A DNA stretch of 64,000 nucleotides, from positions 19,179,361 to 19,243,360 of the forward strand of contig NC_054756.1 of assembly GCF_018143015.1 (NCBI RefSeq), in the 5' to 3' direction. Made by a program: the position numbers and the translations under genes. Under the pieces are notes generated by a model, which searched no databases, was not told where the DNA came from, and saw only the letters and a list, made by a program, of their open reading frames with translations. This DNA is from Lytechinus variegatus (taxonomy: Eukaryota; Echinodermata; Echinoidea; Temnopleuroida; Toxopneustidae). Below are positions 20,301 through 63,768 of the stretch, in pieces. How positions within the stretch are numbered: position 1 is the stretch's first letter; every line of letters starts with the position of its first letter.

Positions 20301-23300
20301 TGACAACAGCTCAAGCATCTGCTTATTTTGTCATACCACTGCATGTCTGCAAAAATTAACCTTGTTATAATCAGTTATGTTAATGTTATGTTAATCATCA
20401 TAATCATACATTATTATTATGTAAAATTCAATGTAATCAATTTTGTGATGGTTACACTATGTAAATTATCATGACATGCAGAAACAAATAAATGAAATAA
20501 ATAAAAATAAATAAGTGTCCAAATATCATCATATACTTAGATATGGTCCATTAATGTGAACTCATCTTTGTAAATGATGATTTCTTACCTAAAAATGGAT
20601 AATTCTGTTGATCACTAACACAGAAAAGCATATGTGAGACAGTGTAATTAATATTGCTTCGAGTGCTTATTTTGTAATTTCTCAGCAATTAAGCATTTTC
20701 TTCCAGAGCTATTTGGCACATATCTAAACATACAAACACTTTGGTGGTAATTTCATTAGATTCTGCTTGAACTCATTTTGAGATGGTTACCACATCAGAC
20801 CATGGTCCTTTTGGGGCGAAACTACACCTTTCAACGATTTTGTTGGGGCTATTTGTTAAAAACCCTGCTCATCATCACCAACATCATCAATAAATCAAAT
20901 GCTGAGTACTCTAAAGAGTGCATTTCATGCTTTATAAGTTACATTATCAGTTTTATTATATGAGTTGATTTTTTTTTCGTTAAAAACCTCTATCATTTCT
21001 CACCTGTTGCCTTGCAATAAAATTGAGCAGTTGGAGTGACAGCTTCCGACTTGAATGAAGTAAGCACTCCAAGCTCTTCTTCTGGCACAGGCGCTTTTCG
21101 GCTATCCTCTGGCAAACTTCCTGATTGACCACCTCATCAAAGAGAGGGACCCCGAAGCTAAGGTCCAAGAGAACCCAGTTTGATTCCAGCTCTTCAGAGT
21201 TGATCCTCTCCCTTTCATCCGGTACCTTCAAAATGAAATCACCATAATAAAGTAGACTCTGCTTAAGTCAACCTTCCATCAGTAAAGTAACTGCGTAATA
21301 AAAGACTATTTCAAACCAGAATATGCAAAATCAGGTCTTTTCTTACATCTTCTGAGTCAAATCTCGCCTGAGTCAAACAAATCTCTGTGGTATTGAGAAT
21401 TGATCTCGGCAGAGTTACTTTTATAATAAATCATAATTGAATTACATAGGCCAATCTATTCTCCTTGCTAACGATAAGACGTCCATGGAAAGAGAAGAGT
21501 AGATCTAGAAAATTCAGTAGTTTTCTCATAAAGAATTTAATGGACAGTGTACTACCTTGAAGTACACTTCTTCAGATGGAGACTGTTGACATTGCAGCCC
21601 GAGATAGTCCGAGAGGACTTCATTTCCAGCCAATAACAACAGTCTTTTGTCTATTGAAAAAGAAGCCTACAAAAACTTATAAGTAAAGGTAGTAGACAAA
21701 GGTAATTGTCCATGGTATTTGTAGCCATCTGAAAGCGAGAATGGTTCCGGATTTGGCAGAGTCTTTAACCAAGCAAAATCTATTGGCACTGTCATGATTC
21801 TCATCTTTCACACAGAGCATTGGGGGTTTGAATCTTGAATCCTAGTCCCAGCCCGTTTTTCAGTCTTCAGTAATTAACTGTGCTGCCCTCAAACAAAATG
21901 TGGTGAAAGGGTTCCCTATAGGACCAATGCTTTGAATGCATTGGCGATGATGAAAAACAGTGGCAGTTTGAGCTAAAGCTGCGGTAATAATGGTGTACTT
22001 TGTAACCTCTGGAGAAACCACTTTAAACGGTAAATCCAGCTTAAACACAAGGACAGTTTGGAAGATCAAATCAACCCATGGGCATACCTGTCTTGATCCT
22101 AGCGGTAGCTGCATCGAATCTTTAGCCTTCTCGACATCCAGGCTCTTGCTCTCTGCACCATCCGCTGCCTCCCCCAGACCTTCCTCGTCATCGGCCGCCT
22201 CGCTGAGCTGCGATGCAGTCAGCCGGCTCTGAGCATCCTCGTCATCGTTGGGGCCATCCTTGCCATCTTGGCTGCTTGGCTGAGGATGCTGCGAAGATGA
22301 CAGACAGCCTGACTTGAGGAGGGTGATGTAGCCACAGGAGTGGGTGAGGTCCAGCTCATCCTCAAGCTTCTTGACTGTTCTGTGAGTGTGCATGGAACTC
22401 CTTGTTAGGTAACCTGCAAACAGGCAAAGGGGAAGACAAGTAACAGGGCAGTCAATAACATGAAATGCACAGCTGCATGTTCAGTTTCCCTCCTAATGCA
22501 GTCATCCTATCAAAAGAAGAACAAAGTGTTAATATCTGTACATAAATGAATATTCTACACGACATGGGTAAGGTAGAAAATGAGTAAACACTCAGTACTT
22601 GGCATAAAATACATGTAAGAAGCATTCTGTCACTTATGAAGCTATTCTCAATGGTATATCATAAATTGTGCTCCTGTGTGCTTATTTTTGTTGGCATACT
22701 TAAACAATTTACTTTCAAAATCAGATTTCAGCTACCGGGAAATTGCAATACATACCTCCCTAAAGCAAATGTAAGTTTTGTTTTGTAATACATCCCCTAG
22801 AAGTGCATGCCAATACTTAAATTCATTATCAGATTATATGTATATGTATGCTGGAAGGCAGTTACCATCTGGAGGATGAAATAAAGATGTGATTTTTTGA
22901 TAAATTTTGTGATTTTTGCAATGCGATGAGTACCTTCATAACCATTGGAACATCCCTGACTACCTCCTTCGGTTTACAACTGTTACTATTGCACATGTAC
23001 CTTTTGACCATAATTCCTAGTAATTTACTTACTGATGAGTATAATTTGCAAAACTAATTCAGTGTGATTTCAAGACTTTATTGTATCAATAATACTAATA
23101 ATAATTATAGGCATTCATATCGTGCCATCTATCTAGAAATAGCCTATTCTGAGGTGCATTGTTGTTATCATTATCACCCCAGCTGTAGCTCAAGCAGCCT
23201 TTCAGCTCTCGGTGCATTTCAAGGAATTATTCCTACCTGGTACCCATTCACCTCCCCTGGGTTGAGTGAAGCACAATGTGGGTAAATTTCTTACTGGTGG

Positions 23301-26300: not shown

Positions 26301-29300
26301 TCAAATTATGGCAATAAAAATTAGGTTGACCTACACTTGATTTGTGCTCCAACTTCATGGAAAGACCCAAATGTAGCTAGAATGTTATCAGTTGCCGTTT
26401 GTTGATGTTGAGTATTACACAGGTAAAAAAACCCCAAACAAACAAGATCGGCCGAAAACTTCTCATGGGGGTTGTTTGTCAGAAGGGTCCCTATTATTAT
26501 CATTATTATTTATTCGACCAATAAAAAAAAATGTACATATACATACCATCAGAAAAAAAAAATTACAGTACATGAACATGTTAAGAAATTGCATGTGGGT
26601 CTGGGGGCACAAAAGCGAAATTCATCACTATTGCCCGAAGGTATGAGCCCCACACATGCTGCTCCCAAGAGATAAATCAAACATATAAATACTCTTTATA
26701 CACAAAATATTGCACTTTGGAATAAAGGGGAATGCAAAAAAGGGGGTAAAAAATAAATAAATACATAGGCCTACAGATGCATTTAGAAAAAATATAACAC
26801 TGCAAAAATTAGACTGCCACTTGGTCTACACCTGGTGTGTGTAATCTCCACTTGGTCTCATCACACATGGTCTAATACAAGTTCGTCTACTAAGAATATA
26901 GTCTAATCGCCATTTAGCCCATGATAATATTTTGTCTAGTTTGCAGTTGGACTATACCCATTTCCTCTCAACATCCATTTGGTCTAACATCAAGAGGTCT
27001 ACCTATTTAAATATATGAACAAATTTGCATTTGAAAATAATTTACAGACGAAGTGGAAATTAGACTAACTGAGCATTAGAGTAAATAAGAAATAGAGTAT
27101 AAAGTGGATGTTAGACCAAACAGTTAGACCAAACTGACAGTACACCAGAAGGTATAGGACTCTGATAAGTAGACATACTGCTTGTAGACCAATCGAAAGT
27201 ACACATAAAATATTCATGTAGAACGTTAAAATACTCCTGAAGGAGGGCTTTTAGAAACTCACCTGAATCAGCACAGCTGAGTGAGCGAGGGCATCGTTTA
27301 TTGTAAAGAGGGCATTTGATGTACTGACCAGGCCTGGATCGTGGCCCCATGTTGTGACCAATAACCGATCAAACTCCTGAAAATAAATGCAAGGATATTT
27401 GAAAGGGAAAAAAAAGGAGAAAAGAAAGCATATTACATGAAGAAAGGTTTGAACAGAATCTGATGAACTATGAGGACTATTTATTGTAAAGGAAAGGTAA
27501 ATGAAAGACTGTTTAAAATGACAACAGAATAAACACAAAGATGCTTACTACTCTAAAAATAAGTCTCAGCTGCCAACTGTCTAGAGAGAAAAGCAGGGCC
27601 CCGTCTTTCAACAAAAAGTTCTTCCCAAAGCAAGGTCACCGGAATCCGAAACCCCCGCTCTACCGTCTGAACTGACCAAAGCTCTATCACATTCCGACTC
27701 AAGCGGTCATTAAAGACAGCTTACTATGAGGAGTATTCCAGTTTCAAAGGACATCTCTGCTTTGCAGCTCACGGGTGTAGTCTTTGTGGATCGAACCCTA
27801 TTGTGTTGTACCCTGAACAGCAGAGGGCCTTGAAAAAATGCTAATGGCTATATTTCACACACATGGCCATAATTAAAATAACAGATTTATTTTATAATGT
27901 TTCTATTGCAGTCATGCTTTCTTGCCTGGAAATAAATAAATAAATACTAAATAAATAAATAGATAGATAAATAAATAAGTAAATAATAAATGAATAAATA
28001 AATGAATAAACATATAAATACATTAACAAATAAATAAATAAATACATAAATACATAAATAGAAAGATTGCTGTAAGCTTCAAGAATCTTTCCTAGAATGT
28101 TCATACAACTTACCTGAAACATTGGAGGGAGGTATCTTAACCTGCTTCCTTTGACTAGAAGGAGAGATGGAGGACCACTCTCTACAAGGTGGTAGAGATA
28201 CAGCTTGAACCACAAGGAATTCACCTGATGTAAACAAACAAACAAACACAAAATGTTGATGAATTCTAGCATAATCCTATATTAAATGCAAAATCCATTA
28301 GGTACTGATTTTCAAGAAAATATTCATCTACCGTTATATGTATTTGTATCACGAGTGCATGCTCCAACACCCCCACACAAAACAGAACAAGACACACATA
28401 TTAAATTTGACGATCTGGGACTCAGTTAAAATTAATCACCACAGTGGGAACATTTTAGTGTGGTATCATACACTAACAAACCAGTGTGGTGTTTCCTGAT
28501 GCTGTTTGTTACAAATGACTTTACAAATTAATGCAACATGTAATAAATGATCAGTATTCACACACACATCAATAGAGCACAACAAAGGGCCACCAGTTGC
28601 TCGTAAAATGATACTAACAAAAAGCTTTATGAAATGACCCCCGTGGTAATTTTCTAAACATAAATCACTAAAAGCAGGGACACTTCCTACCCACTACACA
28701 CACAACTTGAGTTTGATTTGCCGAAAGAGATGTTTTTACAAATAATTAGGTTCCTATATGATATGGTTTGAAATGAGATAGTCATGGCATGGTTTAATAT
28801 CTGGACCAGGAAATGTCCCCAGAATCAGCTATTTCCAAACTCACACACAAATGCACAATTAACATCCTCTTTGAATGTATTGAATTATCTTCTCTTTTTC
28901 TCACTATTTCTATCCCCCTTTTATCTCTCTCTCTCCCTCTCCCCTTCTTTTTCGCATTTTGATCTCAATCATCCTTACCCTCCAAACTCTCCAATTAAAG
29001 ATGTATATTGAGCAGTCCCTTGGTGCCCCACCCATTAATTATCAATTAATATACCTACTGCAGTTCTTTTGACTCAATTATAATCAACACAACCCTTCAC
29101 TGACTCTACCATACCACCACATTTCCCTTACATTCCACATTCAAAAATAAAACTCGGATAAAATATAATTCAGAAATAAATGAAATTCAGAAACTACATC
29201 ATAAATGAAAAATACTGCACAGAAAAATAAAAAATATATATGACTAACCTCTGGTATAGCAGGTCCTATATGTTGTGGTGTACAGCTACTAATAGGTCTG

Positions 29301-32300
29301 ATCTCATTACTAAGAGGGGCCATCGATACCAAAATCCTGTAAAGTATACAATGACAATGGTTAAATGAATTCTGTACAAATCCGTTGATTACGCAGCTTA
29401 TAAGCAGTGAGGGTTGGTTAATATAACACTGCTGTATGCAATACAACGCCACTTTATGCACTGAGGTGACATCATGACCAATAATGTGTTCCTTGCAGCT
29501 ACAATCAGACAGTGGTGCATTGATAATCTATAATACTGCTACTTAAATACATTTTGTACAAATTGCTTGTATAGTTTTTAATCATGAAAGGATGGTTGGT
29601 ACTACAAAATCTAAGAATGGCAATGAGCAGAGAAATGTTACATCCTCCTAGAGCAAATCAAAGTTATATATTACATTATTTTCTACCTTAATCTTCCATC
29701 TTCCTTTGTTTGATTTCATCTTACATGTACAATGTATGTTTATTTTTGCATTTTGCCCCAAAGTAAGTGAGTCATATATTTCTATACTCATTCTCTGATC
29801 AAATATGACATATTTTTTATAGGAATTGTTTCTTAGATTGAATTTAGTGACAAATGAATTACCAGGATCGTTTTTAATAAAGAGTTTCAGCATTCACCAG
29901 GATTTCATAAAACTCCTTTTACCAGTTAGCAATGAACTGCATCTAGAAGGGCACAGTTCATCATGAGTACGAGAATTTCATAAGAATTTGTAAGCATTTA
30001 GATTAAAGAACTTTGATAACAATAACAATGTGACTTATTAAGCAAATCCATTCTGTAGAGTGCTCAAGGCGCATAAAGAGCCAAGAGTAAAATAAAAAAA
30101 GTTTTTAGAAAATTTTTGAAAGTCTCTTCATGTCTTCAGGAAGATTAATATCAAACCAAGTTTGGTCCAGTGTGCAGTACAGTTTCTACATATTCTGTAA
30201 TGATAATTTAACAAAAATCAAAAATAAATCCTGTCTCTGGTATGGCTGCTATTACTCACTCATAGTTTTTCTGCAGTACCCGAGCACACGTAGCTGGTTC
30301 TAGACCCAGTAAGCTCTCGCACCTTAGCAGATCTATACCCATACCTTTACTCACACCATCAGAATCAGGGGATATGTCCTTATTGTATCTGAAATACAAG
30401 CATACAGAAATAATGATAGCAGTGTTCTAGCTAGACCCATTTTAGTAATCGTAATTTCATGGCATTACAAATTCTTTATCAGGCCAAGTTAGTTGTTTTT
30501 AAGTAAAGGAAGATCAACCTAATAACAATCTGACAGTAGTAATAATGAACAGTGGCAGGTGACTCCAGTAACTACTTGTACTTGCTAGTAATGGGGGTGT
30601 TACAAAAAGATATAAGTTTAGCTTGAAGATGCACTTTTTGATACCAAGATACATGTGATACAGGTACATGTCAAGTACTAGTTATATCATGCCATTAAAG
30701 AGGACATGCGCTACTGTGTATTAATGGGATTAACTGCACTTTTAATATCATGTGCACGTCAGCAATAAACACAACTTTTAGTCACACTTAAATCTTTATG
30801 AAAAACCCCACTGATAGGCCATCAAGATGTCAAAGTGCAAAGAAGAGCAATGGGAAAAAAGATACTGCACATGCCTGAGGCAGAAACAGTGCCTCTGACA
30901 GTATGCAGCACAATATACATGTACGCATGAGCTACCGCTTGAGGATTAGGCTACGCAGCTCAAATCAATTCATTGTCATTAAACTCTATCTTACACAGGT
31001 ACATGTGTACATTGTATGCATTACATAAACCATTAAGTTTTAGGTTGCCAATCGATTCCGCATTTGCTTCCATTTTACTTTTTAAAACAGAAGTAAAATA
31101 AGAATGAAAGAGGATGAATACATAGTTTATAGGAATAACCCCATATAAGCTGATGCTGTTTTACAGGTGTAACTGTATTTCAGCATCGCTAAATCCCTCG
31201 ACTGTCGATAATTGACTGAAAAAGGGTAAGAATACATACCTTAGGAATGTGATTGTGTTTTTGAGTATGACAGCATGTTCAAAGTATCGCTGTGCTTCTC
31301 CTTCCACTACACTGTCTTTAGGAACCTGAAAAATAAATTAAAAAATCAATACAAACCATATGGTGAATTCAGTGCCCTGTCTTACAAAGCATTGCGACTG
31401 ACCTGATTAACCACAACTATGGAAAGCCAGCAAAGTCAAAATCTAAACCGCATATTTTTTCAAAATATTTTCTAGCTATGATGTATATTCATGCATTCAT
31501 CGTTGTCTTGAAAATTCACTGTGCTTCTCTTTGTTTACAAAGGACACTGTGCACATTTCTACTACATTATCTCTCCATTCATGAATGTTCAATTCAATTC
31601 AATTCAATTCAATTTATTCAAATTCCATTCAATAAAAAACACAAGATACAATATCAGAAAAATACATAATTGATAAGAAAGCAATTAAACATACATGAAT
31701 ACAAAATGAAATTTGGGAGACTGCAAAAGACCGAAAGGTCTTGACGAGGCAGACCCCGAGTGCCATCATGGCGATACAAATATTGACATATTAGAAATGA
31801 GGACATGAAGGGAAAAAAAGTACAGATGTCCTACCCCCCCCAATCGGGAACTGGAAACCAGTGTAACAATTATAAATTATCTAAATACACTTTAAGAAAA
31901 AAATTCATGAGTCATATGATGATATGATATGTTTTTTTAGCTTACGTTTAAAAGAAGAAAGCGAAGAACATTCTTTTATTTTACGAGGCAGTGAGTGCCA
32001 AACATCGGGTCCTCTATGTCTGATGGATTTATAAGCAAGTACTGTTTTGGGATTACTAAGATGAAAATTGTTGGAACTTCTGGTATTGTGTTCATGAACC
32101 TGGGTATTACGTATAAACATTGAATTAAAATTGCTTGGAACCAAGTGATTAGCATAATTGAACATAAAGTTTGCAGTTTGTAAGATATTGATATCAGATA
32201 TTTTTAATATGTTCAGTTTTTTGAAAATTGGATCAGTATGGGCTAAGTAAGGAGAACTTGTGCAAATTCTTATGGCTCTTTTCTGCAATAACAGTAAGGA

Positions 32301-35300
32301 ATTAACGTTTCTTTTGGTTCCACAACCCCAAGTAATATTAGCATAAGATAAATAAGATAATATGAAAGAATTGTACAATAGTATAATAGACTTTGGCATT
32401 AACGTATCTTTTAGTTTGAACATAATACCAATAATTCTAGAAATATGAGTTCTTAGATGCTGAAAATGCAAATTCCAGTTTAAATGTTGATCAAGAATAA
32501 CACCAAGAAATTTAACATTAGTTTTCCTTTCAATTATGGTATTGTCTATTAAGATTTGGCTCTGGTCTTCCATAATGTTTTTGTTTGTGTTGTGAAATAT
32601 AACATAATTTGTTTTACTGAGGTTGAGAGATAACTTATTACATTGTAGCCAGTTAGTTAATTTACGTAATTCTACATTGATGGTGTTTATCATTTTGTTA
32701 AAATCATAATGAGAATATAGCAGTGTCGTATCATCTGCAAATAACACATAACTAAGCTTTTCAGAAGACTTTACAATGTCGTTCATATATATTATAAAGA
32801 GAAGCGGCCCAAGTATGGATCCTTGTGGGACGCCACACTGGAGCTCTAAAATTTGTGATTTATGAACATCGACCTCAGTGTATTGAATTCTATTTTTTAA
32901 ATAATCTCTAAACCATGCCAGAGGCGTACCCCTTATGCCATAACATTCAAGTTTATGTATTAAAATTGAGTGATCGAGCGTGTCAAACGCTTTTGATAGG
33001 TCCAAAAATAATCCGGTTATATATTGTTTTTTTGCAAGGGAGTTAGTTATTCTATCATATAAGTCCAAAACTGCTAATTCCGTTGAATGATGTCTCCTAA
33101 AACCATATTGGGCGGTGCAAAGTAAATTGTTTTTGTCTAAAAAATTATATACCTGGTTATGGATTATTCTTTCTAAGATTTTAGATAAAGAGGGTAAAAT
33201 AGATATGGGTCGGTAATTTTCACATTGGATCCGATTTCCCTTTTTAAATATTGGTACGACGCGTGCTAATTTGAAAGAATTCGGATAGCACCCAAGAGAC
33301 AATGATAAATTGAAAATATGACAAAGTGGATCTGCTATAAAGAAAATTATTTGTTTTAAGATAAATGAGTTGATATCGTCATGCCCACAAGTTTTGGTAT
33401 TTTTAAGGGATTTTACTATGGATATAACTTCGTGTGGTCTTACGGGTTTGAAAAATATCGAGTTTTCAGCTCGTTCAGGTAAAAAATCTTTAAAAGAGTG
33501 CTCATTGGTTGTAAAAGTTTTTGATAAAGTTGGACCTATGTTTACAAAATATTTATTTAAGATGTTTACAATTTTCTGTGGGTCACGAGTCTTTTCTTTT
33601 TCAGAGTACATTTCTTTTGTGAATTCTGTTCTTTTACCCCTGCCTAAGATATTGTTTAAGATGGACCAGGTAGCAGACATATTTCCCGACACTCTTTTAA
33701 GTTTATTTGTATAATACATTTTGCGTGATGCTCTAATAATGGCTGTTAGTTTGTTACGATAAGCCTTAAATTTATTATGTTGGACGGTATTGCTAGGATT
33801 GCGTATATACAACTTATATAATCGATTCTTTTTTCGAATAGAATTCATTATTGCATTGGTAATCCAAGGATTATGAATATTATTTTTTCTTTTCTTTTTG
33901 AGCAAACAAGGTATATTTTTATCATAATATTCCTTAAATTTTTGAAGAAAAAGTTCATATGCTATGTTCACATCATGTGTTACTTGAAATACATCTGACC
34001 AGGTTTCTTTTATAAGATCGATTTTAAGGGAGTTTATATTTTCGACTGAATAATTTCTATTAAAGTATTCATTAGATTCATATCGTTTCCCTTGTGTTTT
34101 TCTTGATATTGTAAAAATAGGAAGGTGATCTGATACATCATAGTATAAAATACCACTTTGAAAATCTTCTACAATATTTGTGAAAATGTTATCTAAAAGC
34201 GTTGCGGATGTCGGGGATACTCTGGTAGGTTTGTCTATTAATGGATAGAGGGCGTAACTATTCAATAACGATATGAAAGTATTATAAGACTTGTCATTTT
34301 TTGAAAGTAAGTTTATATTAAAGTCGCCCATTAGATATATATGTTTGCCACCTTTCGAAAAATTACTGATACATGATTCTAATTGATGAGTAAATGAATC
34401 AATATTCGTACCGGGTGGACGATATGCTACGCCTACAATTACATTTTTACATTTAACATTGGAAATTTCCACAAAAAGCATCTCAAAGTCTGGTGATTCG
34501 GACAGAGGGGTCATTAATTGAAAGGAAATATTTTCTTTTACATATAATACTACACCTCCTCCACGTCCATGTAATCTGTCAGAACGTAACATCTGATAAC
34601 CTTCCATGTTAAATAAAGTAGGAGAATTAGGGTTTAACCATGATTCACTTACTCCAATGATGGACAATGAATTGTTTAGGGATTTAAGTAGATTAGATAC
34701 ATTGTCAAAGTTGCGACTTAAACTCCGGGCATTTAAGTGTAGTAAGCTGAAATAAGACTTGTCGTTACAATTATGACAGGAGTTAAGCTCGTCGGGTAAA
34801 TAATAGTGGCATTCATTGGATTTCAGTTCTTCGTCAGATAAAGACATGTTTAAAGACTCAGTCATTTAATGATTTACGTTGCTCGTTCATGCAATATACT
34901 ACTATAGTTAAGTCACTGGCATTGATATCTAACGACATGTTCTTAAAGTGGTAATGGCAATTGTTACAATGTGAATTTGAAAGAGTAAATACATGGGAAA
35001 AACATCTACAGAAGCCCATTAAAGATCTAATACGGAATATGTACACACAAGGCAAAAATAGAAACAAATATAATTGTTGAAAAATAAAATAGAATATAAG
35101 AGTATAAAACAATTATAGACTTGTATAGCGTATAAACAATTTGGATAATCTGGAGGAAAATTCGTCAATTTTGAGTTTGCCTTCAGCAAATATATAGAAA
35201 CATGATAAATATGCATAATGAAATGATATGTTGATATGACATTTGATTGGACTGTAATTAAGAAAACATAAATTTATCGGGTTGAAGTTGTACTGTGACA

Positions 35301-38300
35301 TACAAGGAGTTATTCAGACATGTCGATGGAGAATATAAAATTACAATCTTTGTATGTATGCGTACATTAATGTTAAGTTGTAAATATAATATGGTTTTAT
35401 TTAAACAACAGTTTCGTGAATATTACATATAGAAGGGTATTTGATATAACACAGTTTTTAAGGATCTACTAGGAATATACAAACTGTAGCGTTTGTAGAG
35501 TTTATAAGGCAAGAAGGTCACTATCTCTAAAGATTTGTTTCTTCATTGAAGTGTTAGGATCTGTTGTTTTCACTGAGGCGATAGAAGGGTATTTGATATA
35601 ACACAGTTTTTAAGGATCTACTAGGAATATACATGTACATGTAAGCCAAATTTATTCAAAATAGAAGGGTATTTGATATAACACAGTTTTTAAGGATCTA
35701 CTAGGAATATACATGTACATGTAAGCCAAATTTATTCTGAAATGTTCACTATTTTCATGGTCATCTCAAAGGCATATTTACAAAACTAGCTTTTATAACA
35801 CCACTGCCAATGGGAGATGGAATGCAGAGTAAGCTGGTTTGGTTTTGCTTTGAAATGAATCAAGGGGTATGAGAACGTTTGTCTTACCCGATCCAACTCG
35901 GCAAGAAAGCTGTCCAGAGACTCGTCGGAAAGTTTACCGACCTCAAACATGGTTACTGCATGACTCTTCAGACCCTGTGAAAAGAAACGTACAAGAAGAA
36001 AAGCTCAGTAAATTACTTTAATACATGTATGACAATGAGGGATACAGCAAATTTTGATGTCACATGGAGGGATTTGGCAGTCAGATTCTTAAGAAACCTA
36101 ATTTGAAATAAGTGGGTTTTTTGTTTTCAAATGACTAAACAATTTTTTAGTCCATGTCATCATCTCGAAATTGCATCTGTCTTTGTGAAAAATGAAAAGA
36201 AGGTCATCTAATTGTAGATCCTATTATTGCAGCATCTTTCACTCTCCTGAGGCCCGATTGATAAAGAGCTGCAACTGTTGTAGCTTTGTCATTACGGGAA
36301 ATACCATGGCAACAGGGCTCAGCAGCTAATCATAATCAAGGTTACGGTCTCAGTTGCCATAATGGGAATGTTACAACAGTTGTAATTTTTTATGAAACTG
36401 GGCCACTGATCGTTAAACACTTCTGAGATTCAAGGGGATTGACTTTGACTAAAGATTAAATAAATAAAAAAAACAGGACAATACTATCCTGAATCATCTT
36501 TTGCTAACAAAATATGAGGGAAAGGAAATTTGTCTTACCGGAGATAAATTTCCCATCATGAGAAACGCTGTAAGGGTGGAATCAAACAGGAAAGCTATCC
36601 TCTTTGAATGACCTCCAGTCGCCGTGATCGCTGATGCTGAAACATCGGACTCATCGATGCTGGCAATGTCAGAGGTGTCGATGGAGCCCTCGTTGGATGG
36701 GGAGGTCTTCTCAGAGTTTGTGGTGTGAGCAGCTCCCCAGTCAATGAGGAGCAGATCATCTTGAACTGTAGATCTGTTCCAAATGTGAATAAACAGAAGT
36801 ATGTTTTATACCTTGTATTATTAATCATAATTTTGAGGGAAAGGAAGTTGCAGAAGCAGATGAAGGGAGAGAAAGAGGAAAAAGGGAGCAGGAGCGCAAG
36901 AAAGGTTAGAGGAGGAGAAGTTCAGAGGACAAAGAAACATTGAGGAAGAAGAAGAAATAGACAACATAAACAAAGAACAAAACTTATAAAGCTTCTCTGA
37001 ATACCAACTGTTTTCAATGTCCTAGTGGTTTATAATTTGGTGACTTATAATAAAAATCATAACAGTACTTATACTTATTACACGAGTTCATATTTTTTGA
37101 TAAACTTGCAATAGTGTGAAGCTCTGTTTTTCTCTTCCAGAGCAATAATTGGAGGTATAATGAGGACCTGAATATATTTTGTGCTTCTTTGGTTAACATG
37201 TTTATCCCTACAATGTGTTGCTATCATATTGCAAAGAATGAACATTCACATACTTTTTGGTGCCATTTGCTTGGAGAATGTCTTGCCACGATGGATGTAA
37301 AGCTTCCATATCAAGGTCCTGTCCTTTCCTCTTAGCGAAACCTAGTCTGCAGTACATGGAGATGGCATTCTTCACTAGACCAAGGTCAATCTGGAGTACA
37401 TTGGAAAGCTGGAAGATTGAAATCAAATAAAATGATTTTAATATTGCATTCATAATAATGTAGATTGCAATTATATCAACTAATTTAGATTGCAATCAAA
37501 TTAGATAATTTAGGTTACATGTACAAGTACAATTATCAAACAGATTGCAATATACATTACAATTGTATTAATTGACTTGTAGTGCAATTACAATAAGTAA
37601 TTCATATTGCAATCATACCAGACAATGCAGATTGCAATCACATCAAATAACTTTTACTGCAATCATATCAAATTATTTATATTGCAATTACATCAAATAA
37701 TTTTGATGGCAGCCATATCAAACAATTTATATAACAGTTATAATAAATAATTTATATTGCAACCATATCATCTAATTTAGATTGATACAGTGTATCATAT
37801 CATATGAAGCAATTTACACTGTAATCATATCAAATGATTTATATTGCGATCATATCAAATTATTCAGATTGCAATCATAGCAAATAATTTAGATTACAAT
37901 CAATCCAAATAATTGAGATTGCTGTCATGTCATTGTTACAATACACATACAAGCAAATTGTGACAATGACAAATATGCATTTGTGTTATATAATGTTTCC
38001 TTCATTGAGTAACAATACGGTTGCAATATATATCTACTGCAAGAAAATCAAAATGAGAGAAATTCACCCAACAACACCCTAAATTCACCCACGTGACACC
38101 AGGGAAGCCTTTCATAAAGCAGATTGTCATTGTTTTCCACTAACAACTGTTATAAGCTACTGATATCCTTGAATCTCATTGGCACAGAAAACTAATTCAA
38201 TAAAATTACTGATTATTTGTGTCATGAAACGCTCTCTGGATAGTCACCAATTTGATTAATTTAGGCATTCTGTAGCTTTGCTCACCTCTGCTACTGTTGT

Positions 38301-41300: not shown

Positions 41301-44300
41301 ATGCAATGTAATGTGTAACATTTTATGGGCCCACATACATGTACATAGTGTACATGGCTCTATTAATGCAAAAAAATATATGTTTTTTTAATGGGAGGGG
41401 GCGTGGGTGGGGGGGGGGGTCCAAGTCAAGCACAATATTGCTGCACAAGCTTCAAACGTAAAATTCTTAGAAAAAAACATAATTATCAATGATACATGTA
41501 GATAAAAAAATGTACATGTAGCACAGATTCCTAAAAGATATACATTGTACATGTATGTCACAAAATATAACTTGTGAAATAATAAATATATATAAGTATA
41601 TAATTTAACATAGCTTTATTGTTTTTAGGAATATTCATATTGTTACATGTACATGTAAGTGCAGGAGATTAGTGAACATTCAGAGAGATAGCATTTACAG
41701 TACATGTATGGTTAGCTCATGACAGGCAAGCGCAATGCACCATTCAAAGTAGCTTAATTCAAAGGTTTTTACATTTCACTCAACATGCAGGATTTCTTCA
41801 ACTTAAAAATTATGTCTTTAGGAGCATTACAGAACATTATAAAGCATACCAAAAATATACAAGTGGAATGCCTCTGGCCGTCTCACCTGCATCACACAGT
41901 TCAATATAGCAGCAGTGCTAACTTTGAAAACTACTCTAACTCGCACAAGATGTTCAGTGATACATGGTTACTCTTATGTCCACTTTTTATGAACTAGACC
42001 AATAAACTTACAGAGATATGATGGTTATTCAACAGATACACCCAATATGGCCAAAGTTCATTGACCTTTGACCTTGGTCATGTGACCTGAAATGCGCACA
42101 GGATGTTCAGTGATACTTGATTACTCTAATGTCCAAGTTTAACGAACTAGACCAATAAACTTTCAAAGTTATGATGGTAATTCAACAGATTTCCCCGATT
42201 TGGCCAAAGTTCATTGACCCTAAATGACCTTTGACCTTGATCATGTGACCTGAAACTCGAACAGGATGTTCAGTGATACTTGATTACTCTTATGTACAAG
42301 TTTCATGAATCAGATCCATAAACTTTCAAAGTTATGATGGTAATTCAACAGATACACCCAATTCGGCCAAAGTTCATTGACCTTTGACCTTGGTCATGTG
42401 ACCTGAAACGCGCACAGGATGTTCAGTGATACTTGATTACTCTAATGTCCAAGTTTAACGAACTAGACCAATAAACTTTTAAAGTTATGATGGTAATTCA
42501 ACAGATACCCCCGATTTGGCCAAAGTTCATTGACCCTAAATGACCTTTGACCTTAATCATGAGACCTGAAACTTGCACAAAATTTTCAGTGATGCTTGAT
42601 TACTATTATGTCTAAGTTTCATTAATCAGATCCATAAACTTTCAAAGTTATGATGGGAATTCAACAGATATCCCCAATTCGGCCAAAGTTCATTGACCCT
42701 AAATGACCTTTGACCTTGGTCATGTGACGTGAAACTCATGCAGGATGTTCAGTGATACTTGATTAACCTTATGTCCAAGTTTCATGAACTAGGTCCATAT
42801 ATTTTCTAAGTTATGATGACATTTCAAAAACTTAACCTCAGGTTAAGATTTCGATGTTGAATCCTCCAACATGGTCTAAGTTCATTGACCCTAAATGACC
42901 TTTGACCTTGGTCATGTGACATGAAACTCTAATAGGATGTTCAGTAATACTTGATTAACCTTATGGCCAAGTTTTATTAACTAGGTCCATATACTTTCTA
43001 AGTTATGACGTCATTTCAAAAACTTAACCTCAGGTTAAGATTTGATGTTGACGCCGCCGCCGTCGCCGTCGGAAAAGCGGCGCCTATAGTCTCACTTTGC
43101 TTCGCAGGTGAGACAAAAACTGAGATCCACATACATGCACAGTGTAGACTTATATTGTGTAAGGGTAATATCAAAACAAAAACCAAAAAAATAACAAGAA
43201 AATCATAATATCTTGATGCCAACAAAAAATTATTTACAAAAGAAAATGTCTAAGTCTAATTGGACTAATTACTAATTACATCAAATGTTCAGGTGATAAT
43301 TATGCACGATACAAGATCTGTTATGTCACACGTGCAGTACTAATGACGGTGTTGATTGAATTACACTGTGAATATGGTGCACACTTACTTGAATACTACC
43401 AGAACGATTAAGGGAGGGCTAAATAAAAGTAGCATGAAAAAAATGAACAATTCAAGAAGTAACAAGATTTTCACCCCAAAATTACACAGAATGAAAGTTA
43501 AATGGTTAATGTTACATGTCTCTTTTTGTCTTGTGTCTATTGTAATTACATCCCCTCCCCCCCCCCCCCCACGTACGCTTTATTTGTATTGCTGCAAATT
43601 GGTACATACATGTACTGTATCAATGATTATTACTTTCAATAAATAAATAAATAAAACAAAGCTATTTATCTTTTCAATATTACAAATTATCAAGAAGTGT
43701 ATTTCACTTCTAATTTCTCATTATAATTCTATGATACTAATAAAAATGTTATTTTATTCTTAATAGGAATTCAATGATCAAAAGTGACAAGACAAGTATA
43801 AAGAGATAATAGTGAGAGGTATAAGAGATATAACTTTATAAAGTATGAATGAAAATACTAAAGTAATGGATGGAAAACAAATCACAACTTCATTCTTTTG
43901 AAATTTAATCATCTCGCAAAAAACAGATACTGGTACAACATACATGTACTTCATGTACACAACATGTCTATTAATGCTTGTGATTTGTATGTAAACAATG
44001 GAAGTATAAAACATTGTTTTAATGCATAAATTAATTAGATATTGAAGAATATATGTTTATGAATTAAAAATTTACCTTTGATGATCTGCATTGGTTCATG
44101 ATGTCAATATACTGGTTCCTTCCAATCCCAAGTAACCTTAAACCTGTGGATTGAGGCAAAAAAATAAATAAATGTTATGCTATGCAGTTGGTAAAAAGAG
44201 CCTTTAAGAAAAAGAAATGGTGGAAATTGTGTTTGATTGGAAATTCTAACAAAACTCATAAAAAACACATTGTCAAATTTGACCAAACAGAGAATGGAGG

Positions 44301-47300
44301 TCCCTTTCATAAAACAAAGCCATTGATTTTCATTGACTATTGTAATAAGCTACTGAAATCATTGCATTTTAATAGATCAGAGCAAATTTTTTCTTATGAC
44401 TTTCTGATTTATGACGTTCTCCCAGGATGAATGTTGATTTGTGCCATATGTTTGGTTGCTATTTGTACATGTACCAACAAACTAATGATAAAATTTGTAA
44501 CTTACATATACATGTACTGTCAACATAAGTTTGGATTTCAATTTTCAGTACAAAACAATTAACACAGTGAACTTACAATCAGCAGCAGTAAAGTTTGGCA
44601 GTGAGTCGTAGCTCTTTTCACTCGACATGATATCATGCATCATGCTCAGATAGTAAGAGAAGGGTGTTATCCTTAGTCCTTTGACTGTGATGTCCGATAG
44701 ATGGTAAGGGTAGAGCATCAGGTGATCTCGGCTGTACTTGAGCAGGTCTTCGTAGTACTTGCGATCATCTTTCTTTACTTGCCGTACTGCAGGAGAAAAT
44801 AAAGAGAAATGAAACATGAGAATTCTTGCAAGCCAACTAATGGAGATACATGTACATGTGGTAGGAAAGAAGGCTTGCTGATGCTATTTATTTATAAAGC
44901 TCAATCATAGGTACATGTAATAACTAAAAATTAGGGGATGAAAACTATTAAATGTATATTAAAAAATTCATGGTCATACTGACACAATGCATAATGTTCC
45001 TATAAATTTCTGTTTTTAGATTGATCTTTGGGCCTCATGTTGCCATCATTAAATGTTGAAAACTGTCAAGTAAAACTCATATTATGAATTAAAGGGTTAT
45101 AGAAAATTGATCTCTCAACGAGTTAAAATCAGAAAATTTCAGGTCCTTCTCCTCCTTCCTCATTTTCTTTGTCTTCCTCTTGTTAGATTCATTTTCACTT
45201 CTTCCAATCACATTCCTACTCTCTATTTGGACATTTATAAAACTTCTTTAATGATCAGACATAGCCGAATTGATTCAGCTTTTTATCTTCCACCTTTTAT
45301 ACTTTTAAATAGTAAAAACTACTGAGACTTACTGAGGTTGCCTTTGAAACGAAGTTGATTCTTGATACTATAGCTGAAGACACATTTCTCATATTCCTTT
45401 GGGGAATGACCAAGTAACTGAAATGAAAAAATAAAAAAGTGACTCTCTCTGAACAATACAATAAAGAAAATAATGTACAAAACAAAATGACAAAAAGTCA
45501 TCCATACTGAATACTTAATGCAGCTGCGCGTATTGTACATGTAACTCTATCTATCAAGCGCAGTCATACATGTATTACACCTACATGTATATTGAAAACT
45601 CTTCACTGGTTGTCCCTGAAGGAACGCAGTCTTTAAAATCATTCTTTTGATATTTCATATAGTCAATGGAACTTCCCCCAGTTACAATAAGTCTTTGATG
45701 CATAATTACGAACCCTCAAGAACCTTACAATCCACATCATCTAATATCTTACAAATTCCAGTTGCTAAGAAATTATGCAGGGGGGGGGGGAAGGGGCCTT
45801 TGCTCATGCATGGCCTAACCAATGGAATTCTCTTCCACAGAGTTTGAAAACCCAGACTTCAGTGACCACATGCAAGGGCAACCTGAAAACATACTCTACC
45901 TGTTTGAAATTGCATTTTGATAGACAGTGACTTATATAGCCATATATGTAAATAGCTTTTGTTGTTATTCTGCTCTGAAGCGCCTTGGGCAAGATGGAAA
46001 GTGTGCTATGCAAATCTCATTATTATTATGAGGCCTAGTGAACAAGACCCAAATCTTTTACTCTTGAATAGCCTGGGTACTGATCATCATGTTCCATCAT
46101 AAATCAGTCATTCTGATCATGCCTGGTGGGTGTTTCATAAAGCTGTATAAGAGCGACTTTAAGAACGACTTGTGATCCTTTTTTTGTGGTAGATGGTATA
46201 TTCATGGCGATGGTTTAGCATGTTAGAAAGGTTCATCAGTCATTCTTAAAGTTGCTCTTAACTTACGAACAGCCTTATGAAGCCCCCTGGTCTTGTACGA
46301 TATGCAATCAGTGTTTGCATCTCATGTTAGTTTGACTTATAATCAAATCAGTATACATGTACTAATTATTTATATTCACATATTAAATTTTACTATTTGT
46401 GAAACAATAATTTTTATCTATGAATTATTCTTCAAAACGGCATAGCTAGTCAGAAGTACGTCATCACGAAGCAGTTCAAGGGTCAGGTCTATTGTATTTG
46501 CTTTGTTAACAAACAGATCGAGGGATCTACGGGAGATCAGGTCTGGTAAGAAACGTCTCATTTTTACCATTTATAGTGAAATAATTTTCATCCCTTTATA
46601 CGCATTAGGTGCCTGAAGGTTCATATGGTTGTAGATAAATAAAATTCGACAATACAATACAAGCTTAGTATGGCATGCCTTGGATTTCCTATGGAAATCA
46701 ATCTTTGTGTACATGTGTCTCTTATAGATACATGGACGGGGATTCAAGACTCCATGATGAAGAAATATATGTCCAAAAAAAAAACATCATCATGGAGTCC
46801 TCAACTTCCCTTCCTACAGTACAGTAGTCAGTACACTCTGGCTTAGACAGCTGGCAGCCATCTGTTTTGAGTTTTTAATTTTTTTTTTTCAATTTCTCCT
46901 CGTATACAGACGGCTCGCTATCGTGCAGCCACCATTTAGGGGACTTACAATGACAATCCCCCGTCGGGGCTCTTCCTTCAATTTTGGTCTGTAATGAATC
47001 AAACTTTTGAAAATTAATGTGACCGAAATGCAACTTAATATTCCCTCTTGACATTAATTGCCCAAAACGGGGTAAAACTTAAAAGTCAAGTCCACCCTTA
47101 CAAAAACTTGATTTGAATAACAAGAGAAAAATTAAAGCATAACACTGAAAATTTCATCAAAATCGATGTAAAATAAGAAAGTTATGACATTTTAAACTTT
47201 CACTTCATTTCACAAAACAGTTATATGCACATTTTGGTCGGTATGCAAATGAGGGAACTGATGACATCACTCTCTATTTCTTTTGTATTTTATTGTATGA

Positions 47301-57493: not shown

Positions 57494-58111
57494 ATGGCTA
57501 ATTTATTCAATTTGATCTGTGTGGTGTTTCTTATTCCCTGTGTCGCCAATTCGATTGCACAACCAATTATATGGACGAGTGAGTATATCAATGTCATGAT
57601 TATAAATTATTGTGATCGTTGCGAAGTATTAAAATTATCATTGAAAAGAAATTATTAATGAATTGGTGCCATCTTTATAAGTGAGGGGGGGGGGGATTCC
57701 CGTCTCAGAAATTATATGCATTATGTTCAGGGGCCCTGGAATCGGGGGAAGGGTGGGCTTCAGTCCCCTTCCCCCCTACACACATCCATTTTTCCCCAAA
57801 ACCGTGTACAAAAACGTGAAAATAACCATCTGATTATGATTATATTGCATGGTACACGGGAGTAAAAATATCGGGTGAAATTTTAAACAGCAGGAAGGTA
57901 ATTACGTGTCCAACCAATTTTGGACAGTATTTTGCCAAATATCATTGTTATTTGTTACAATAATTTTCTTCAATGCACAGCATTTTCAAAACTGTAATGA
58001 AGACGAATAACGACATTTCCTCAACTATAACAGAGACGCTTTGTCAAAGAGAATCAGTGGCGTAGACAGGTCCTTAGACCTGGGGGGATGATCCCTAGCT
58101 GGGTCATACTT

Positions 58112-58143
<32 letters not shown>

Positions 58144-61100
58144 ATATATACATATATATATATTGATATATAAATATAAAGAATGAAGGAGATAACGTAC
58201 TCGATAAAAACAAAATATCATGGGCCAAATCAGACGAGTTAAAGAACAAAATAACACGATCTGCCTCATGGATTATCTCGTGTGTCTTTTAATCACTTTG
58301 CTTTCAGCAATAAACAGGGCATCCAGTAATAAACAAACTTCCTTGCACATTTTTCATGGCAGTAATCTTTTGTTTGATTAATGACAATGAGTAAAGATGA
58401 TCATAAGAGAAATGTCATTTGTCGGATGTCTAGTTATCATCTTGGTCATGACAGTCCTGCTAAACATGATCTAGAATAACTAGTATTCCTTATTTTACTA
58501 GTATAGTAGTATACTCTTTTAAAAGTAGCGATATTGTTAATGATCAAACGAATGAATCAACAACTAAAGGAATAAACAAATAAACAGCCAAATAACTAAA
58601 AAAAAATATCAATTACAATTATAGTAATAGGGGTAAAATAAAAAAAGCTCAACATTATATTTCTTATCCACGTGCAGATATGCGGACACTAAAATGATAA
58701 GCACACTCTGTTTAAAATTACCATGATTACAAAGGCTTGATTGAATTAAGTATGGAAATGAAATAAACCTCACCGGGTTGTCGGAAGTAAACTGTATAGA
58801 TAGTAACTTGTTATAATTTCGATTCATTTCTTATTATGTACCTTGTTATGATGATTATGATAAAAACATAGGTAGGAAATGTAACAGTTTATAACCTTCA
58901 AACCTAGAAGACTGCGCACGTACAGAAATCACTGGTATATATAAGTAATTCCAAAATACATTGCGCCAAAAATATTAAGTGAAAAAAACCTCGGATATCA
59001 CTGAGGCCATCCAAAATTTGCACTTTCATTCCAAAATCATTCATTTACTAATTCGCTCCTTAGAGACTGAAAATTTTCACCTTTCCTTTGCAAAGTAGGG
59101 GTTGAGGACATGCATGGCCAGCAGGGAAAAGGGTCAGTGTATGTGTATAGGTAATTTCTTATTAATTCGTTTGAACAGTGTTAATGTGTTATGAAAGCAA
59201 TTGCTCTGAAAGGGAGTGATTAAGCGACACTTTCTTAAATCTGTAATGAAATATTTTGAACTTATCTCCTTTGCAAATACATAATTATTATAAGGAAATG
59301 TACTTGGTGAAACTCTGAATAACGATCCTTAAATGTATATGACGACGCAAGACAGTTGTTATTACTTAAAACTTGCAAGTTGTAAATGCATATAAGATGA
59401 TTGACTCTGAATAAAAGTCAAATTTTGATCATGTTTGTCATTGCTGTACGTTATGATTATATAAATGTTGAGGAGGGGTTGATTCAACCCCCCCCCCCTC
59501 CGGCCAGTTTACGGTTAAAATGCCTTGGCCTTGGGCCTGCATGCATTGGCCTTGTGTACTGAAGCCTTGACCATGGCGTTGGAGGTTTGAGCCTAGACTA
59601 CACAACATTTTACTGATAAGCTGCAGAGAGAAGTTTACATGAGGTTTCCAAATGCATGTATGTCTCATTTATTACATGTAATTGCAATAACGCAAATATA
59701 GTTCTCTATATCCCATTACTTTTGAAAATATGATATTTATTTCAGCTATCCATATGCAAGATGGGGGTAGTGAACTGTTGCAATCTCCTAATCATCCGGG
59801 CAATTACTACAACAATCTCAACGTAAGATGGTTTGTTAGTGCTCCTCCTGCGTATCGATTAAGACTTCAATTCATCTCCTTCTCAATCTCTTGGGGCGAC
59901 AATGTAATAGTGAGCGATGGATGGACATCGGACTTTTCAAGCTCAACTGAATTGGAGAATCTATCAGGTACATCATTACCTGTTGATATCATAACGAATG
60001 GATCCTATCTGTGGCTTCAATTCACCACAAATACTCGGCAATCGACATCTACAGGATTCATGGCCAACCTGACAGCTGAGATGAGATGTAAGTGGAAAAT
60101 GTTTAATGCTCATCAACTTTCTGTCCTTCTTACAGGATTTTATACTCTTTCACCACCTTTTACAGGTGAAAAATTGGATCTCCTATAAAACTGATATAAT
60201 AATCTAGCCAAGGGACGAATAATGTCGTTTTTACAAATTATTATTCGAGATCAAAGCTAACATTCCGATAAGACTGATTTTCATTCAAACGATTGACGTG
60301 AACATGATAAACTGAAGATAAATACCACACATTTATTAATCTTCATTTCTTTATCCAAAAGGATATACAACAATATTTTCAAAGACTAAAACAAGATCAC
60401 ATGTCTAGAAAACAATTGTTGGATTGCCGCTATCACATCACAGAACTTAGATCGTGGCCACATTCAGTCTCCTGATCATCCGTTATATTAGATTTTGTTC
60501 TTGTTATTTATTCATTTTAATACGGCAATGAAACATGTAAGCTCTTCACGTAAACAGTTTTTACCATTTCCAAATGATATACATAACGATGAAAGTATGT
60601 AGGCCTATCTGAATGTAAGATTAAGCGTTTAACGTAGCCATGATTGGATTATTTATCCTACGAGCTGCGGAGAGAAGATTATTCAAGGTTCTCAAAGACA
60701 TGTATGTCTCGTACATGTATGTCTCATTTACATGTAATTGCAATAACGCAAATATAGTTCTCTATATCCCATTACTTTTGAAAATATGATTTTTATTTCA
60801 GCTATCCATATGCAAGATGGGGGTTGTGAACTGTTGCAATCTCCTAATCATCCGGGCAATTACTACAACAATCTCAATGTAAGATGGTTTGTAAGTGCTC
60901 CTCCTGCGTATCGATTAAGACTTCGATTCATCTCCTTCTCAATCTCTTGGGGTGACTATGTAAGAGTGAGTGATGGATGGACATCGAACTTTTCAAGCTC
61001 AAGTCAATTGGAGAGTCTATCTGGTAGTTCATTACCTGCTGATATCATATCGAATGGATCCTATCTGTGGCTTCAATTCACCACAATAACTCAGCAATGG

Positions 61101-61239
61101 ACATCTACAGGATTCATGGCCAACTTGACAGCTGAGATGAGATGTAAGTGGAGAATGTTTAATGTTTATTAGCAACCTACCACTTTGACTCTATACTCTT
61201 TTACCACCTTCTACAGGTGACAGGATGGATCTCCTATAA
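57494..61239 (+). CDS. Secreted CUB-like protein gene with duplicated CUB exon
   Basis: Exon 1 (57494-57578) encodes a signal peptide, MANLFNLICVVFLIPCVANS then IAQPIIWT, ending phase 1 at GTGAGT. CUB exon A (59746-60087) and CUB exon B (60802-61143) are each 342 bases, phase 1-1, flanked by TTTCAG and GTAAGTGG. Both carry LLQSPNHPGNYYNNLNVRWF, VSDGWTS and NGSYLWLQFTT, a CUB fold signature with sequons (NGS, NLT). None of the four usual CUB cysteines is in place apart from one N-terminal Cys in B (Ser in A). Each CUB exon is followed after 73-78 bases by a possible terminal exon (60166-60188; 61217-61239) reading C[DE][KR][ML]DLL-stop. The transcript could use A then B, either one alone, or stop after A; the sequence does not decide. 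Role unknown; CUB domains usually mediate extracellular protein or sugar binding. Confidence 0.72.
58111..58172. repeat. (TA)n microsatellite
   Basis: Imperfect TA repeats in the first intron of the CUB-like gene, just after CAGTGGCGTAGACAGG (58066-58081), which resembles a DNA-transposon end. Confidence 0.85.
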
Positions 61240-61270
61240 AACTGAAATAATCAAGTCATGGGATGAATGA
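59590..61270 (+). repeat. Tandem segmental duplication carrying the CUB exons
   Basis: A unit of roughly 640 bases (about 59590-60230) is repeated at about 60660-61270. The match covers the end of the upstream intron (TTGCAATAACGCAAATATAG), the CUB exon, the short downstream intron and the putative terminal exon. The exons differ by a few percent, mostly in substitutions that keep the frame. Confidence 0.85.
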
Positions 61271-61489
61271 TATTTGTTTCCAAATTACTATTCTAAAATC
61301 TAAACCAATGCCTACATTCTGATATCACTGAATGGGTCCGCCTATTTCTTGTCATAATCATTTCCCTGAGTTATATTCAATACCGATAGTCACGTGAGGT
61401 TTTAAGAGGATTGTTTTTAGTGCACTCCTGGCAGCGAAGTTACGATGTAATAGTACAACATGTCTTGTACCGAAAGGGTGTATGGGTGG

Positions 61490-61870
61490 ACGTCGCCCTG
61501 CATATACTTTGTAAGTTATAACGACATTTCAAAAACTTAATCTTTGTTAAGATTGTGATATTGACTCCTCCACCATGGTATATTCATTGACCCTAAATGG
61601 CCTTTGACCTATGTCATGTGAGGTGAGCAATGATACTTGATTACCCCTATGTCAACAATTCATTAACCATATCCATAAACTTTCAGATTTATGACAATTT
61701 AACAATTACCCAAAACATGGCCAAACTTCATTGACCTTAAACGAACTTCAACCTTGGCCGTGTGACCTGGAACTTTCACAGGGTTTTTGGTAATAAACAA
61801 TTACCCACATGTCCAAGTTTCATGAACTTGGTCAAATACCCTTCTAAGTTATGATGACATTTCAAGTTGA
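61490..61870. mobile_element. Diverged fragment of the tandem-array element
   Basis: Blocks TAAGTTATGATGACATTTCA, TTCATTGACCCTAAATGG and CTTTGACCTATGTCATGTGA match units of 41880-43114. Terminal repeats are absent. It lies after the duplicated CUB exons. Confidence 0.65.
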
Positions 61871-62400
61871 TATACTGGGGTGGTCAGAGGGGGGTGGGGT
61901 GGACTTGAATTAAGAAAGTTATATGAGACGTGCAAATGTAGTCGTGCTTTTTATATTGGGTGGTTGCGGGCAGGTTATTGAATAATTTAGAAGCTGAAAT
62001 AAAGGGGGGGTTGTTTTGAGATATTTCTATATATTCTTTTCTTTCATTTCTACTTTATCCATATTCAATTATCCAATATCAAATTGTATTTATGTAATTA
62101 AATTGAACATTTTTTTTACGTTTTTATGGCCAAATAAACAATAATAATGATGATGATAAAGTCACATTGATACCATTACCTGTCGTAAATATCGGACAAA
62201 TAAAACAAGGTTATTAAACTTTGAAGTTTAGATATATTTTGTAAAAGACACCTACATGCATACCGTCTTGAAAGTAAAATACTTGGGCTGATCATGGTCC
62301 CACTTTGCTTTTCTTTATGTTATTACATGTAAATATATACATGTTATTATTCCACCTTTTCGCACAAGTATATATGATACATATATATCTTGTAATTTAA

Positions 62401-62853
62401 AGGACAAGTTCACCCTTGGAAGAAAATTGATGGGAATAGAAATGGGGAAAATCCAAAAAGCATAACAATGAAAATTTCATTAAATTTTTATGCAAAATAA
62501 GAAAGTTATAGCTTTTCATCTTTTTATCATTATTTCACAAAGCAGTTTCATCACATTCTGGTCAGTATGAGGAGACTGATGACATTATCCACTCCCTATA
62601 TATTTCGATTTTTCCCCCTGACAAATTGTTTTAACATTTTCTTGTTTTGTAAAAATTGAAATGTTGTGTAATATTACATTAAAACAAACAACAGAAATAG
62701 TGAGAGACATCATCGACTGTATAATTTGCATATCACTGAGATGTGCATAATTATACCTGTATTGTGGTAAATAGCGATATCTAAAATATCATAATTTTCC
62801 TATTTTACAACCGACCATTTTCTTTGTTAATTTGGTGGGGTGGACTTAACATT
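62401..62853. mobile_element. TTAA-flanked MITE relative
   Basis: The left end AGGACAAGTTCACCCTTGG follows TTAA (62397-62400); the right end is GGGGTGGACTTAACATTTCA. It shares AAAATTTCAT and AATAAGAAAGTTATA inner blocks with 47083-47667. It lies between the two CUB-like genes. Confidence 0.65.
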
Positions 62854-63158
62854 TCATCAGTTTCATCAATTATTATCTTAAACATTTAAATCAATTGTAA
62901 ATTCGTTTTCTTCATTTCTTCGTCAACAAATTCGAGTGAATATAATTCTTGAATAATAAAATGTGAAAAAATGTAAGGTAATATTACCAATTACACCTCA
63001 GAGAACATAATTATAATGATAACGTGAACAAGATTTTGAATTTTAGAATTATGCAAATTCAAACCATGCTCATTTCTGTAATCTAACCTCTTATCTTGCT
63101 CTGCAAACAAAAGGGAATTGCGCCACGCTGACGAGTTGCTGTAGGAAATTCAAATGAA

Positions 63159-63166
63159 TATATAAG
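63159..63166 (+). promoter_or_regulatory. TATA box of the second CUB-like gene
   Basis: TATATAAG lies 53 bases before the ATG at 63212, predicting transcription from about 63190 and a very short leader. It supports 63212 as a true gene start rather than an internal exon. Confidence 0.5.
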
Positions 63167-63211
63167 GTTTTAAATTTCAAATACATCAGTTCTAAATTTA
63201 CATTTACCACT

Positions 63212-63768
63212 ATGCCATGTCGTGTTTTCCCCCACTTGATAGCCTTCACCTTCACGACTATCCATTTAACGGCTGGGGCAGAAACCCATTTAAACTCCCG
63301 TAATTATCCTGAAGATGAAGACATTCTGGTGAACATCACATCTCCTGCAAACAGCCAAATCCAACTTTATATTACGTTCGATCCAATCCAAACTAATCAT
63401 GGCAATGATGTAGTTTACGTATACGAAGGATGGACATCGAATCAAGTTGTACCAACGAAAAGATGGGATCTATCTGCATCATCTTTCCCGGTGAATATTA
63501 CATCACATGGGTCGTATATATGGATACAATTCAATCGTAACGCTGGCAAACGGAGGGACATCTTTCAGGTTGTTGCATCTTCTCAGATCCGAAGTAAGCT
63601 AAGTTTACTTTAAATATAATCTGTTAAATAGCTGTATCTAGATTTGTTCAAAAGCAAGGTGTAGAGAGTGGCCACTTAATGTTTTGAAATATTTTACGAT
63701 TAATGCAAATACTTTTTTTACGGTATATTCAACCAATCTTGTCTACTTTAGCCTATTTCGAATGGTGA
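63212..63768 (+). CDS. Second secreted CUB-like protein gene
   Basis: The first exon, 63212-63593, starts with a signal-peptide-like MPCRVFPHLIAFTFTTIHLT and continues as a cysteine-free CUB-like domain (NSRNYPEDEDILVNITSP, VVYVYEGWTSN, NITSHGSYIWIQF). It shares TIH, GWTS and NGSY/HGSY landmarks with the CUB exons at 59746 and 60802, and ends in phase 1 at GTAAGC like them. A TATA box at 63159 sets the start about 50 bases upstream of the ATG. A possible short terminal exon follows the acceptor at 63751, reading TYFEW then TGA (63752-63768). That exon is weakly supported; the gene may instead run beyond the window. An alternative reading is that 63229 is a splice acceptor (CACTTGATAG) and the exon belongs to the upstream gene. 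Confidence 0.6.

Follow-up and report, generated by a model that had tools for sequence, protein, structure and literature searches.

Does this locus encode CUB domains that have given up their disulfides, and do such domains belong to separate secreted proteins or to a single gene? The initial annotation of the window, i.e., the whole 64 kb stretch of DNA analyzed here, had proposed three CUB-like domains, and all of them proved to be real: exons A, B and C score 45.8, 52.0 and 21.9 bits, respectively, against the Pfam CUB profile (PF00431), for which the cut-off is 21.4. Exon C exceeds the cut-off by half a bit when read from an ATG at position 63212 (E 2.3e-4) and by less than one bit in either reading (E 1.8e-4 and 22.2 bits vs 21.4 when read from position 63243). 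A phmmer search of the PDB with exon B retrieved cubilin (3kq4) in three stretches with an E-value of 8.8e-22, followed by PCPE-1 and the neuropilins, and a profile built from A, B and C likewise matched cubilin (E 2.7e-18) as well as PCPE-1 and neuropilin. Exon C alone retrieved no CUB chain from the PDB at E-values up to 10. By sequence comparison C is clearly related to the other two exons, with 33% identity to A and 35% to B, a tblastn E-value of 5.7e-11 for A/C within the 64 kb window and a BLASTP E-value of 2e-13 for B/C.

No further CUB exon passed the inclusion threshold when the A/B/C profile was run against 2879 six-frame segments, each 15 residues or longer (best other E-value 0.28). 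A 53-base stretch at 60430–60482 resembles the start of a CUB exon in exact register, with 31/53 ungapped matches and a stop soon after. It is the best plus-strand place after A and B, just ahead of C (30/53), and the best minus-strand place reaches 27. As a candidate for a decayed third CUB exon it was rejected, since 648 of 1000 shuffles reached its score in a gapped local test and among 20 Markov sequences, each 64 kb long, two also reached 31 matches. Searches of viral contigs with exon B gave four candidate stretches and searches of prokaryotic contigs with the A/B/C alignment gave 33, none of which was confirmed; both collections say little about animals.

Table 1. Features of the CUB locus and LINE-type frames in the window.
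Feature	Position	Strand	Description
Exon 1	57494..57578	+	Likely signal peptide (MANLFNLICVVFLIPCVANSIAQPIIW...) with the start codon; phase 1 donor, joins exon A in frame
Exon A	59746..60087	+	Cysteine-free CUB; three N-glycosylation sequons; phase 1-1; Pfam CUB E 8.6e-12
Exon B	60802..61143	+	CUB whose single Cys, at residue 8, is non-canonical; three sequons; phase 1-1; Pfam CUB E 1e-13
Exon C	63243..63593	+	Divergent CUB; 351 nt; phase 1-1 if TAG 63240-63242 is the acceptor
Duplication unit with exon A and flanks	59655..60246	+	592 aligned columns shared with 60714-61293 at 89.0% identity
Duplication unit with exon B and flanks	60714..61293	+	89.0% identical to 59655-60246
LINE-type frame	17521-19722	+	Endonuclease and reverse transcriptase domains
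LINE-type frame	31905-34865	-	Endonuclease and reverse transcriptase domains; open for 986 codons

The layout of the exons (Table 1) is most simply read as that of one gene. Exons A and B have AG/GT borders and identical lengths of 342 nt, and phase 1 is found at the ends of exons 1, A, B and C as well as at the starts of A and B. The donor of exon 1 matches five of nine consensus bases, and exon 1 is the only one with a strongly hydrophobic start. We favor, with a probability of about 0.6, a reading in which the plus strand carries the 5′ portion of a single animal gene that comprises a signal exon and at least two, most likely three, CUB domains, encodes a secreted or cell-surface protein and extends past the window. 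Each CUB domain would thus occupy its own phase 1-1 exon downstream of one signal-peptide exon, with A and B arising by a recent local duplication and C being an older relative. The open exons, their phases and their homology are observed here; secretion and the splicing of C are predictions. The separate secreted paralogues with individual signal peptides that had been suggested at first are doubtful, because A and B follow one shared signal exon and a good acceptor, in phase, precedes C, which makes a single multi-CUB gene the simpler solution.

Exon C is open from the ATG at 63212 to 63593, where it is followed by a GT (GTAAGC) in phase 1, the positional counterpart of the donors that end A and B. 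Its candidate acceptor is preceded by 13 pyrimidines in 16 positions, is phase-1 compatible and has the previous AG 53 bases upstream; on this joint measure, only 1.04% of the 6735 AGs on both strands equal it. The acceptors of A and B, with 8 and 9 of 16 pyrimidines, are equaled by 13.5% and 10.5% of the AGs, respectively. As they are ordinary on this measure, it serves as a rough guide, and the acceptor of C favors one gene without proving it. Splicing of C at 63243 would yield an open chain of 373 residues from exon 1 through C.

We next turn to the cysteines. Exon A has none, B has one at residue 8, and C, when read from the ATG, has one at residue 3, which is absent if the exon starts at 63243. 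All four canonical positions lack Cys in A, B and C, the first one by extrapolation: the Pfam match starts at position 11 or 12 of the 110-position profile and stops at 108 or 109, and since it begins only there, Cys1, at which we take the PF00431 profile to begin, was placed by ungapped extension. The extrapolated site falls on the splice-junction codon in A (Thr when spliced) and on a Thr in C. The second Cys had been described as replaced by Arg, which is off by one residue: each of the four cubilin repeats shown has its Cys2 opposite Val26, and Arg27 comes next. The third and fourth cysteines are likewise missing. A and B have no Cys around the Cys3 site in any of the alignments; among the four cubilin repeats, Cys3 faces a five-residue gap of B in one and Arg54 or Val55 in two, and the remaining repeat itself lacks it. 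Opposite Ser73, three of these repeats have Cys4 and the fourth has a Tyr. The N-terminal Cys that had been described for copy B, Cys8, extrapolates to about profile position 9 rather than to Cys1. If a gap is allowed, Cys8 could be read as a shifted Cys1, yet its partner Cys is missing.

Both Val26 and Ser73 are invariant across A, B and C. Identical residues at two lost-Cys positions are more easily explained by a single ancestral loss than by separate decay in each copy, which supports this part of the earlier interpretation. The cysteine loss itself is directly visible; A, B and C probably adopt the CUB jelly-roll fold, which would be kept without either disulfide, with Thr/Val at Cys1/Cys2, a Cys3 site without Cys and Ser at Cys4. 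The domains would then bind proteins by way of their sheets or loops, as glycosylated modules. Calcium binding may be affected as well. The Glu present in all four cubilin repeats shown faces Ser48 of B, and A carries the same residue; Asp51 of B, also shared by A, faces Asp in two of the repeats and a gap or His in the other two. Calcium-binding CUB domains of the cubilin, C1s and PCPE-1 type bear acidic residues at the calcium site, and the Ser in place of the cubilin Glu suggests that calcium-assisted ligand binding was probably lost in A and B.

The coding sequences of A and B share 317/339 bases. The NG86 method gives a dN of 0.0592 and a dS of 0.0987, i.e., a dN/dS of 0.6, and with 16 nonsynonymous and six synonymous differences the ratio is not distinguishable from 1 (Fisher p 0.60). 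Residues 1–40 hold one nonsynonymous and two synonymous differences, residues 41–99 hold 15 and three, respectively (Fisher p 0.77), and the two exons differ in their sequons. The intron flank just upstream is 73/74 identical, which together with the conserved first third of the exon suggests a conversion tract across both. Diversifying selection on A and B was not retained as a result, as the excess in residues 41–99 is not significant, and is kept here as a possibility. A and C share 196/339 bases (58%) in an open frame. In a neutral simulation carried slightly beyond this divergence (to 55% identity) and restricted to substitutions, ignoring indels, only 4 of 4000 sequences stayed stop-free. 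The rarity of open frames in the simulation indicates that selection probably maintained the A-to-C frame for much of that time.

Could the same exons be arranged differently? Two adjacent genes, the paralogue model of the initial annotation, are an unlikely solution, in which the signal exon, A and B form the first gene and the second begins at the ATG at 63212 with a signal peptide fused to a CUB domain, the intron having been lost in C. This ATG is in frame and followed by a moderately hydrophobic start, but its best 10-residue hydrophobicity mean is lower than that of exon 1 (1.72 vs 3.16), and the supposed signal peptide contains the good in-phase acceptor described above. The junction bases ACGA followed by CTATCCAT are identical in C and in spliced exon 1 plus A, and the intron end before A differs; the four bases 5′ of the C border thus equal the end of exon 1, as expected under loss of intron 1. 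However, just these four bases match upstream of the border, which we estimate to occur by chance in about 1 in 256 cases. For a possible derivation of the 5′ part of C from exon 1 or from the intron upstream of A, the alignment scores are 14.5 and 17.0, values obtained without a control. Rather doubtful, too, is that A and B serve as mutually exclusive exons for a single CUB position, an arrangement compatible with C as a further exon. Their equal length and phase, their near-identical flanks and the concentration of 15 of the 16 nonsynonymous differences in residues 41–99, as seen when exons vary one face, would suit this. On the other hand, inclusion of all 342-nt phase 1-1 exons keeps the frame, hence exclusion is unforced, and given the nearly identical upstream flank the quiet first third may be a mere conversion tract, with no significant excess in residues 41–99.

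Two readings of how the cysteines were lost are each improbable. In one, A, B and C are what remains of an expanded CUB gene in decay, with relaxed constraint behind the loss of cysteines. The dN/dS of A and B, the differing sequons and the lone Cys of B agree with this, as does a stretch at 60430, between A and B, that weakly resembles a CUB domain and ends in a stop; however, A, B and C all have open frames and usable splice borders, two lost-Cys positions hold the same residues in all three, and A and C diverged without acquiring any stop. The other posits that a lineage of animal CUB domains dropped, in one ancestor, both disulfides together with the calcium site, packing and glycosylation providing stability, and that it then spread by exon duplication while one face (residues 41–99) changed rapidly, as would suit a recognition protein under diversifying selection.

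The remainder of the window was surveyed for other genes and repeats. Protein domains were searched in 147 of the 174 listed frames, a list limited beforehand to frames of at least 62 residues that passed a complexity filter and did not fall within the two LINE frames, and ten frames were rescanned singly. Among the 147 frames, six match FAM91_C and five FAM91_N; four of the ten rescanned frames are FAM91 on the minus strand, in the N-to-C order 44548–44883, 36497–36805, 29144–29527 and 21863–22480. Taken together, the split exons, the CUB domains and the FAM91 exons suggest that the window is of animal origin. Scans of the window for Rfam families (gathering threshold) and tRNAs returned nothing. 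Downstream of exon B, a repeat at 61501–61865 has several overlapping matches at 41955–43061 with 67–84% identity. The region 62389–62738 is a dispersed repeat with copies at 47.1–47.7 kb and 50.6–50.7 kb, which may resemble sea urchin repeats.

Judged from their sequences, the domains are a genuine but mildly unusual variant of the very common CUB module and not new in kind; most likely, the locus is one multi-CUB gene whose architecture is ordinary and whose loss of disulfides is uncommon. If the fold holds, it offers a natural case of a normally disulfide-stapled extracellular module that works without its staples, which would inform our view of protein stability, and cysteine-based rules would overlook some CUB proteins. 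At present, it adds modestly to a large and well-known domain family.

How far do these domains depart from known CUB systems? In two papers, four conserved cysteines forming two disulfides are attributed to “almost all” CUB domains (PMC3100851) or are said to occur “often” (PMC9083331). Since these sources call the four cysteines usual and not obligatory, membership in PF00431 by profile stands. The closest comparison is cubilin (3kq4), which in the alignment shares the SPN.P and DG motifs and a Trp two residues past the Cys2 site. One cubilin repeat (chain positions 128–225) also lacks Cys3 and Cys4 in the alignment. In contrast to cubilin, the three domains have no canonical cysteine at all, and A and B carry Ser where the four cubilin repeats have Glu; ligand binding by cubilin is said to need disulfides (PMC9485058). 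The CUB-like domain of CDCP1 (CDCP1_CUB_6, PF23665) is matched weakly by residues 7–45 of A (E 0.0043) and residues 10–45 of B (E 0.021), with 17.0 and 14.8 bits vs a threshold of 27 and with C not listed, and the general CUB profile fits A and B far better. A likeness in another respect is found in ADAMTS13 CUB1-2, CUB domains that have also shed standard features: as described in PMC8051872, CUB2 is without the second disulfide, neither CUB domain binds calcium and the loops are glycosylated. In the same paper, some disulfide-linked dimers are reported for a construct with an unpaired Cys1275. Among the titles and abstract openings covered, which represent part of the literature on the topic, none described fully cysteine-free CUB domains. 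Each ADAMTS13 CUB domain, according to PMC8051872, retains at least one disulfide, whereas those of the window have none of the four cysteines. Partial loss of cysteines is thus already known for CUB domains, and complete loss in three related domains is one step beyond it.
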